From contig NC_053400.1 in the NCBI RefSeq assembly GCF_016859285.1, positions 24,966,001 through 25,030,000 of the forward strand: a stretch of 64,000 bases of DNA, in the 5' to 3' direction. Source of the DNA: Xiphias gladius. Taxonomy: Eukaryota; Chordata; Actinopteri; Istiophoriformes; Xiphiidae. Within the stretch, counting starts at the first letter, position 1. The number at the start of each line of letters is the position of its first letter. Positions 6,214 through 8,977 of this stretch are shown here, one piece after another. A model generated the notes under the pieces. The model searched no databases and had not been told where the DNA came from. It saw only the letters and a program-made list of their open reading frames with translations. The translations under genes and the position numbers were made by a program.

Positions 6214-6279
6214 TTGTTGTTGTTGTTTGTTGTTGTTGTTGTTGTTGTTGTTGTTGTCGTTGTTTTCTTCCTTTGCCCG

Positions 6280-7257
6280 TCAGTGAGCAGCTGAAAATTT
6301 CAACCTCTTCTGCTTCTGTCTTTGGTTACAAAACCACACTCGCACCACATTTTTTTTCAGGTCCAACTTTTCCGCTATAGCTGCTATTTTCTCGGACGAC
6401 GGCCGAGGCTGTACGGCGAAGTAAGCCTCCAAAGACCTCTTTTCTGGGGCCGCTATCGAGGTCCTCTTGCGTTTCTTTTCCCCACCGTTGAAAATGTCCG
6501 GTTTGCTCATTTTCTCCCTCTGGGCCCCCTCGGCCTCCTCCAGCCAGGCCTGGAGGATAGGTTTGAGCGCAATCATGTTGTTGTGGGAGAGAGTTAACGA
6601 CTCGAATCGACAAATTGTACTTTGGCTCAGTGATCCCACGCCGGGGATTTTGAGATTAGCCAGAGCACTGCCCACGTCCGCCTGGGTCACCCCCAGCTTG
6701 ATCCTCCGCTGTTTGAAGCGCTCCGCGAAAGCCTCCAGCTCCCTTGGGTCTGTGTCCGAGTCATTGATTGAGGGGAGTCCGGTGTTAGTGAGCCCTGGGC
6801 CGCCTTGACTCACCCCGTGGTGGCCCGGTAAGAGCCCGTGGTGGGTGAGAGGCGAGTTCATGCTCATAGCCTGGTGGGAGAGGTGACCCAAGCCGTGCAT
6901 GTGAGAGTGCGAGTGGGCAGAGGAGGTGGAGATGAGCCCTCCGCCGCCACCTCCGCCGCCTCCGCCGCCTCCTCCGCCGGCCCCGTCGTGCGCACTGGAC
7001 ATAAGAGTGAGGGACGGCGAGCTGATGTGGTCCATGATGTCCGGGGGCTCCAGGTTCTGGTGGTGGTGGTGGTGATGGTGATGATGGTGGTGGGCCAGTG
7101 GCACGGTGGACGTCGACGAGCACGGCACTGTGCTCATTGTGTGGTAGGTTGCGTCGGGCTTGAACGGATGCGTCTTGCCCTGGGACACGGCGATGTCCAC
7201 GGCCGCCAAAGCCTCAGCCCGGGCCAGTAGGGTCTCATCCAGGCTGGCAAATATGTT
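6280..7257 (-). pseudogene. Truncated tandem duplicate of pou4f1 exon 2
   Basis: This second copy of exon 2 is open for 325 codons, from the Asn of SNIF to the same TGA stop, and encodes intact POU-specific and homeodomain regions. By eye it matches the complete copy base for base, except for 9 extra bases (three more Gly codons, so 14 in place of 11). The match ends at 7257, inside the Asn codon, where the GTT repeat takes over, so the splice acceptor, the first three codons of exon 2 and all of exon 1 are missing. The upstream frame is poly-Asn, then Thr, and is one base out of register with the stop of the first copy, so simple read-through would not make a fusion. As read it would be transcribed only as part of a very long pou4f1 3' untranslated region. 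It may be a recent duplication or an assembly artefact. Confidence 0.85.
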
Positions 7258-7947
7258 GTTGTTGTTGTTGTTGTTGTTGTTGTTGTTGTTGTTGTTGTTG
7301 TTGTTGTTGTTGTTGTTGTTGTTGTTGTTGTTGTTGTTGTTGTTGTTGTTGTTGTTGTTGTTGTTGTTGTTGTTGTTGTTGTTGTTGTTGTTGTTGTTGT
7401 TGTTGTTGTTGTTGTTGTTGTTGTTGTTGTTGTTGTTGTTGTTGTTGTTGTTGTTGTTGTTGTTGTTGTTGTTGTTGTTGTTGTTGTTGTTGTTGTTGTT
7501 GTTGTTGTTGTTGTTGTTGTTGTTGTTGTTGTTGTTGTTGTTGTTGTTGTTGTTGTTGTTGTTGTTGTTGTTGTTGTTGTTGTTGTTGTTGTTGTTGTTG
7601 TTGTTGTTGTTGTTGTTGTTGTTGTTGTTGTTGTTGTTGTTGTTGTTGTTGTTGTTGTTGTTGTTGTTGTTGTTGTTGTTGTTGTTGTTGTTGTTGTTGT
7701 TGTTGTTGTTGTTGTTGTTGTTGTTGTTGTTGTTGTTGTTGTTGTTGTTGTTGTTGTTGTTGTTGTTGTTGTTGTTGTTGTTGTTGTTGTTGTTGTTGTT
7801 GTTGTTGTTGTTGTTGTTGTTGTTGTTGTTGTTGTTGTTGTTGTTGTTGTTGTTGTTGTTGTTGTTGTTGTTGTTGTTGTTGTTGTTGTTGTTGTTGTTG
7901 TTGTTGTTGTTGTTGTTGTTGTTGTTGTTGTTGTTGTTGTTGTTGTT
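7255..7947. repeat. Perfect (GTT)231 trinucleotide repeat
   Basis: 693 consecutive bases read GTT with no interruption; on the coding strand of pou4f1 this is (AAC/CAA)231. It lies between the two exon 2 copies, 52 bases beyond the stop of the complete one, so it falls in the 3' untranslated region of pou4f1 as drawn. The corresponding ancestral tract at the far end (6215-6257) is only about 43 bases and interrupted. An uninterrupted tract this long implies very recent expansion, or a gap or repeat filled wrongly in assembly. Confidence 0.97.
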
Positions 7948-7999
7948 TGTTGTTGTTGTTGTTGTTGTTGTTGTTGTCGTTGTTTTCTTCCTTTGCCCG

Positions 8000-8977
8000 T
8001 CAGTGAGCAGCTGAAAATTTCAACCTCTTCTGCTTCTGTCTTTGGTTACAAAACCACACTCGCACCACATTTTTTTTCAGGTCCAACTTTTCCGCTATAG
8101 CTGCTATTTTCTCGGACGACGGCCGAGGCTGTACGGCGAAGTAAGCCTCCAAAGACCTCTTTTCTGGGGCCGCTATCGAGGTCCTCTTGCGTTTCTTTTC
8201 CCCACCGTTGAAAATGTCCGGTTTGCTCATTTTCTCCCTCTGGGCCCCCTCGGCCTCCTCCAGCCAGGCCTGGAGGATAGGTTTGAGCGCAATCATGTTG
8301 TTGTGGGAGAGAGTTAACGACTCGAATCGACAAATTGTACTTTGGCTCAGTGATCCCACGCCGGGGATTTTGAGATTAGCCAGAGCACTGCCCACGTCCG
8401 CCTGGGTCACCCCCAGCTTGATCCTCCGCTGTTTGAAGCGCTCCGCGAAAGCCTCCAGCTCCCTTGGGTCTGTGTCCGAGTCATTGATTGAGGGGAGTCC
8501 GGTGTTAGTGAGCCCTGGGCCGCCTTGACTCACCCCGTGGTGGCCCGGTAAGAGCCCGTGGTGGGTGAGAGGCGAGTTCATGCTCATAGCCTGGTGGGAG
8601 AGGTGACCCAAGCCGTGCATGTGAGAGTGCGAGTGGGCAGAGGAGGTGGAGATGAGCCCTCCGCCGCCACCTCCGCCGCCTCCTCCGCCGGCCCCGTCGT
8701 GCGCACTGGACATAAGAGTGAGGGACGGCGAGCTGATGTGGTCCATGATGTCCGGGGGCTCCAGGTTCTGGTGGTGGTGGTGGTGATGGTGATGATGGTG
8801 GTGGGCCAGTGGCACGGTGGACGTCGACGAGCACGGCACTGTGCTCATTGTGTGGTAGGTTGCGTCGGGCTTGAACGGATGCGTCTTGCCCTGGGACACG
8901 GCGATGTCCACGGCCGCCAAAGCCTCAGCCCGGGCCAGTAGGGTCTCATCCAGGCTGGCAAATATGTTACTCTGCAG
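8000..8977 (-). CDS. pou4f1: pou4f1 coding exon 2 (complete copy)
   Basis: This exon carries 325 codons plus TGA. The acceptor is a long T run on the minus strand (the + strand A run at about 8994-9012) followed by CCCTTGCAG, and the exon begins LQSNIFASLDETL. It encodes the second half of the POU-IV box, the His and Gly runs, and both DNA-binding domains without a break. The first 27 bp after the stop run straight into a CAA-rich 3' untranslated region. Confidence 0.94.
   Translation of the reverse strand: MQSNIFASLDETLLARAEALAAVDIAVSQGKTHPFKPDATYHTMSTVPCSSTSTVPLAHHHHHHHHHHHQNLEPPDIMDHISSPSLTLMSSAHDGAGGGGGGGGGGGLISTSSAHSHSHMHGLGHLSHQAMSMNSPLTHHGLLPGHHGVSQGGPGLTNTGLPSINDSDTDPRELEAFAERFKQRRIKLGVTQADVGSALANLKIPGVGSLSQSTICRFESLTLSHNNMIALKPILQAWLEEAEGAQREKMSKPDIFNGGEKKRKRTSIAAPEKRSLEAYFAVQPRPSSEKIAAIAEKLDLKKNVVRVWFCNQRQKQKRLKFSAAH

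Follow-up and report, generated by a model that had tools for sequence, protein, structure and literature searches.

A probable false tandem duplication of the pou4f1 DNA-binding exon beside a giant TTG repeat in the Xiphias gladius assembly

Microhomology-mediated tandem duplication at a microsatellite leaves direct tandem copies that share bases at their junction. Tandem copies can also be products of assembly; the accessible text of two sources on vertebrate assemblies describes false exon gains and homotype duplications at contig boundaries, with four of the ten exons of GABRG2 caught in a false partial tandem duplication in an earlier zebra finch reference (PMC8081667, PMC9516828). As presented in that text, the false duplications of the Vertebrate Genomes Project (homotype and heterotype) are near-identical tandem copies of parts of genes on one scaffold, characteristically with a gap between the copies. 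For POU4F1 (Brn-3a) itself, a short form, POU4F1-s, which is 84 aa shorter than the long form, is described in the accessible part of its source as expressed from an intronic promoter (PMC3692409). At the pou4f1 locus analyzed here, in a window of 64,000 nucleotides, two near-identical copies of most of exon 2 likewise stand next to each other on one scaffold, but a pure simple repeat lies where the gap would be. This exon pair is probably a false tandem duplication produced by assembly, and thus a false exon gain, a reading to which we assign a probability of roughly three in four. No account of a tandem duplication of pou4f1 exon 2 was found among the matches listed in a literature search.

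The gene has two coding exons on the minus strand, as follows.

9416..9538, minus strand: pou4f1 exon 1, coding part, 41 aa, with ATG at 9538, donor CAG/GTAAAT and an in-phase join to exon 2
8978..9415, minus strand: intron 1, 438 bp, with the GTAAAT donor, a T-rich stretch and the acceptor CCCTTGCAG
8000..8977, minus strand: coding part of exon 2 in the proximal, spliceable copy (B), placed by Pfam domains and reading frame, stop TGA

Exon 1 (9538-9416) joined to copy B (8977-8000) encodes a POU4F1-like protein of 366 aa, in which the POU-specific domain (PF00157, 3e-31) and the homeodomain (PF00046, 6.3e-18) are carried by a single exon preceded by an in-phase N-terminal exon, and whose closest solved structures are POU-domain proteins. 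The name pou4f1, with its class 4 and paralogue number, follows the initial annotation and known POU4F1 sequence; no database match names it. When a 651-bp exon probe was run against the whole assembly to which the window belongs (690.8 Mb in 1,298 contigs, the window lying on C1), ten matches were returned: copies A and B at 100%, three long matches at 75–77%, taken to be POU4 paralogues, and a further five that are short. None of these ten matches is an unplaced second copy of the locus (a haplotig), and none places the locus on another contig. No structured RNA matched Rfam at the gathering threshold in the window. Upstream of pou4f1 lies an open frame of 473 codons (11469-12887, minus strand) with a weak match to PF12329 (E 0.002, below the cut-off), which by synteny is perhaps an exon of obi1/rnf219.

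The comparison of the two copies gives the following features.

7934..8968, minus strand: duplicated unit, copy B, 1,035 bp, taking in the end of the TTG tract, delimited by sequence comparison
6214..7257, minus strand: distal copy (A) of the duplicated unit, 1,044 bp, without acceptor or LQS codons, free of substitutions relative to copy B and differing from it by one 9-bp gap
6950..6958: three extra Gly codons, in copy A only, seen as the 9-bp gap between the copies

That exon 2 is doubled without substitution and with a length change of three Gly had been claimed from the first inspection, and the alignment confirms it, the 9 extra bases of copy A lying within a Gly run. The unit is larger than the exon taken as duplicated there, as it combines a short TTG tract of the 3'UTR with the coding part of exon 2 minus its first 9 bases; only copy B has the acceptor CCCTTGCAG and the three opening codons, LQS. 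When the 64-kb window was compared with itself by megablast, no direct repeat other than this pair reached 100 bp and 95% identity within 6 kb, which excludes chance.

Between and beside the copies the TTG repeat takes three forms.

7254..7947: perfectly pure TTG tract between the copies, 694 nt, 230 units, from the sequence and a genome pattern count
7254..7257: non-native junction, where copy A in its last bases and the tract overlap by 4 bp, TGTT, from breakpoint comparison
6214..6257: short native TTG tract by copy A, interrupted at 6226-6229 by a TTTG that is seen again at 7946-7949

Both outer flanks look native, copy A continuing into the 3'UTR and copy B into the acceptor and then intron 1; the sole foreign adjacency is the point at which the exon 2 5' end of copy A meets the tract (7254-7257). 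The TGTT found there is a match of a length that is uncommon, as four or more shared bases occur in 1.3% of the breakpoint/phase combinations in 8002-9399. The TTTG interruption and the sequence after it are common to both copies, whereas to its left there are 4 TTG units in copy A and ~230 in copy B; the extra length thus sits at the foreign junction. The pattern (TTG)37 has 194 matches in the assembly, the number expected from the 230 units of the window tract, so all of them come from this tract and no other of at least 37 whole units was found in the 690.8 Mb. Shorter tracts do occur: (TTG)20 has 275 matches, with 211 accounted for by the window tract, and 75 TTG tracts of at least 11 units are preceded by A, C or T. 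There is no N between the copies or anywhere in the window, the giant pure tract standing there instead of a gap.

Much of this anatomy would also be expected if the tract-plus-exon unit had genuinely been duplicated in tandem, and very recently, through microhomology-mediated template switching at the TTG tract; the TTG repeat would have expanded then or afterwards, and copy A would lie untranslated in an extended 3'UTR. The direct tandem copies beside a simple repeat, the single clean junction with its four shared bases and the native-looking outer flanks are what that process would give; the lack of substitutions fits a young age, a change of 9 bp is an ordinary outcome of slippage where a Gly repeat is imperfect, the TTG motif is native to the pou4f1 3'UTR, and the exon probe finds no match to the locus on other contigs. 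However, such an origin needs one tract to have grown, on the left side of the shared TTTG, from ~4 units to 230, a size for which no second TTG tract was found in the assembly, and a like anatomy recurs at giant CA tracts (below), in two cases with copies whose outer ends carry no CA tract; a single event leaves both the giant pure tract and the CA recurrence unexplained. We regard a real duplication as unlikely.

Copy A retains an open frame.

6280..7137, minus strand: open frame of copy A from an internal ATG (Met85 equivalent), 285 aa, at the POU4F1-s start position

The internal ATG (7137-7135) corresponds to Met85 of the long form and so matches the published start of the short isoform, and the 285-aa frame is intact and keeps both DNA-binding domains. 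The distal copy had been described as lacking an acceptor, exon 1 and a start; the first two are indeed absent, but the start is not, in that this internal ATG is kept. Unlike POU4F1, copy A has no acceptor, exon 1 or intronic promoter. On the minus strand there is no AG from 7987 to 7244 (~740 nt), so the tract offers no acceptor; within copy A, the first AG comes after largely A/C-rich sequence, not after a pyrimidine tract. Splicing into copy A was rejected as a candidate on these two grounds, and the proposal of the initial annotation that it is spliced through a cryptic acceptor is thus poorly supported. Early polyadenylation between the copies was likewise rejected, as neither AATAAA nor ATTAAA was found on the minus strand from the copy B stop to copy A, which leaves the alternative 3' ends suggested earlier unsupported. 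Read-through of the copy B stop would add nine Asn, 230 Gln and HICQPG before another stop, out of the copy A frame; because the tract consists of whole triplets, the outcome is the same at any whole repeat number, and read-through into copy A was discarded too. Upstream, the frame of copy A itself stays open through poly-Asn and poly-Thr, with no ATG before a stop. Without a preceding intron, copy A would be a passenger in a long 3'UTR. Service as a functional second exon, either as an alternative terminal exon or as the source of a POU4F1-s-like protein from the internal ATG, is extremely improbable: it could draw on the intact frame, the two domains and the POU4F1-s-equivalent ATG, but it presupposes a real duplication, the acceptor is missing and read-through is out of frame, and POU4F1-s, in the accessible part of its source, has an intronic promoter (PMC3692409) whereas no intron precedes copy A. 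The further suggestion of dormant coding sequence could apply solely if the duplication is real.

Giant pure repeats elsewhere in the same assembly provide the comparison set. A 192-nt pure CA repeat has 53,092 matches, counted at every offset, which shows that giant pure CA tracts are common in it. Loci were drawn with two anchored patterns that gave 19 and 20 hits, 39 in all, with right flanks added for 16; the sample consists of tracts preceded by T and is not random. The 39 hits represent 38 loci, as L066 and L067 are the same locus; L066, whose left flank extends over only 429 bases, was counted as negative, and L067 fell in the group of ten hits left unjudged. Those ten had fewer than 250 bases of non-repeat flank on one side, in three cases owing to N. 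At the L066/L067 locus two giant CA tracts stand back to back, the first of 1,071 nt, with one T between them. A tract running into N was considered as a sign of an assembly gap, and the idea was dropped because N could not be distinguished from masking. A flank was scored as duplicated when the left flank appeared again beyond the tract over at least 80 bp at 95% identity or more. By this rule the left flank is duplicated at five of the 23 evaluable loci with CA tracts of at least 600 nt, at 97.9–100% identity; the other 18 giant tracts showed no flank duplication, nor did any of the six tracts under 600 nt. The five cases are as follows.

L039: 207 bp, 99.5%, 1 substitution; 50 bases between the first copy and the tract
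L048: 183 bp, 98.4%, 3 substitutions; 4 bases between the first copy and the tract
L054/L064: 235 bp, 100%; a copy directly adjoins the tract at each side
L069/L086: 242 bp, 99.2%, 1 substitution, 1 gap; a copy directly adjoins the tract at each side
L076: 341 bp, 97.9%, no substitution, 4 gaps; second copy 1,356 bases past the tract

The five differ in how closely they follow the pou4f1 arrangement. At L039 and L048 a short CA tract lies at the start of the first copy, like the short TTG tract at pou4f1. At L054 and L069, the two cleanest cases, the outer copy ends carry no CA tract in the sequence examined (L054 has a short TG tract ~20 bases outside the left copy), and no shared bases were seen by eye at the end of the first copy. 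At L076 further CA tracts and other sequence lie between the tract and the second copy, and the gap-only differences would be what errors in long-read consensus give. Mobile elements were rejected as the source of the duplicated flanks in two of the five cases: a genome-wide search with the flank of L054, and one with 167 bp from that of L039, each gave two copies and no more.

Direct repeats of at least 100 bp and at least 97% identity number zero in 186,554 bases free of giant tracts (76 stretches), a control in which some pieces occur twice, stretches under 400 bases are excluded and many stretches are flanks of giant-tract loci. Among 21 short-tract sites one is positive (L052), and it lies beside another giant tract; its pair, at 95.4%, falls below the 97% threshold of the 186,554-base control. 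This L052/L063 pair consists of direct copies of 195 bp that differ by 9 substitutions without gaps and both take in the end of a CA tract; it looks older than the other cases. Fisher's test of 5/23 giant tracts gives P 0.19 against 1/21 short-tract sites, P 0.05 against 0/20 when L052 is left out after the fact, and P 0.55 against 0/6 for the CA tracts under 600 nt; with P between 0.05 and 0.55, the contrast per tract is weak by itself. Estimated roughly from lengths, with ~3 kb of flank assumed per locus, the chance that all five pairs fall at giant tracts is 0.0014.

The duplication at pou4f1, its single non-native junction and the like anatomy at other giant pure repeats of the assembly are directly observed, and the near-identical flank duplications of 183–341 bp across giant CA tracts are possibly a systematic assembly defect. 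Left open at the outset was whether the exon pair is a very young duplication or an assembly error; the error is the better supported of the two, since the anatomy recurs at unrelated loci and, in the sequence examined, is unseen away from giant tracts. The recurrence of flank, giant repeat and flank again would be the trace expected when overlapping contig ends stay unmerged and simple repeat fills the join. For pou4f1 we infer that the true locus would have a single exon 2 followed by a 3'UTR with a TTG tract, over which two contig ends, maybe from two haplotypes, would have overlapped by ~1.03 kb without being merged. The pieces would then have been joined end to end, the left one stopping at the exon 2 5' end (copy A) and the right one starting within the TTG repeats that precede copy B; the pure TTG would be filler or over-extension of the repeat. 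An origin in two haplotypes is suggested by the 9-bp difference between the copies in the Gly run. The uniqueness in length of the window tract within the assembly also supports an error. Counting against it are the lack of N between the copies, the TGTT junction, which fits microhomology-mediated duplication and has no counterpart by eye at L054 and L069, the overlap of 1.03 kb as against 183–341 bp in the CA cases, and a motif that is TTG rather than CA and native to the pou4f1 3'UTR; moreover, three of the five CA cases (L039, L048 and L076) are less clean, 18 of the 23 giant-tract loci gave no duplication and the per-tract tests are weak. On gap filling and simple repeats, nothing decisive was present in the accessible text of the sources among the matches listed.

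Error and biology may also be combined at this locus. One real haplotype could have a greatly lengthened TTG repeat in its 3'UTR and just one exon 2, the exon copy alone being false; this is a sub-case of the assembly-error explanation, its odds are contained there, and taken by itself it is fairly unlikely. It would account for the 9-bp difference as that of two alleles, and for an expansion confined to one side of an interruption common to both copies, but no other TTG tract of at least 37 units was found in the assembly to set beside it.

If the exon pair is false, as we think probable, its consequences are practical: automatic annotation could call a second, truncated pou4f1 or a novel isoform here. 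The flanks of giant pure repeats are sometimes doubled in this assembly (5/23 judged), so young duplications beside such tracts need a check against reads before they are interpreted. The flank and giant-tract pattern could instead be genuine, a product of repeat expansion in this species. We consider it distinctly unlikely that simple-repeat expansion drives flank duplication through template switching and has copied nearly the whole pou4f1 DNA-binding exon into the 3'UTR; were this true, a POU4F1-s-like frame of 285 aa would stand one promoter or one acceptor short of use. If the duplications are real, repeat-driven exon copying is directly testable in this genome. Among the CA loci, eight (L043, L044, L045, L052, L054, L069, L082 and L084) have perfectly pure tracts of 1.7–2.2 kb on contigs of chromosome size, a purity that is unusual for the length.
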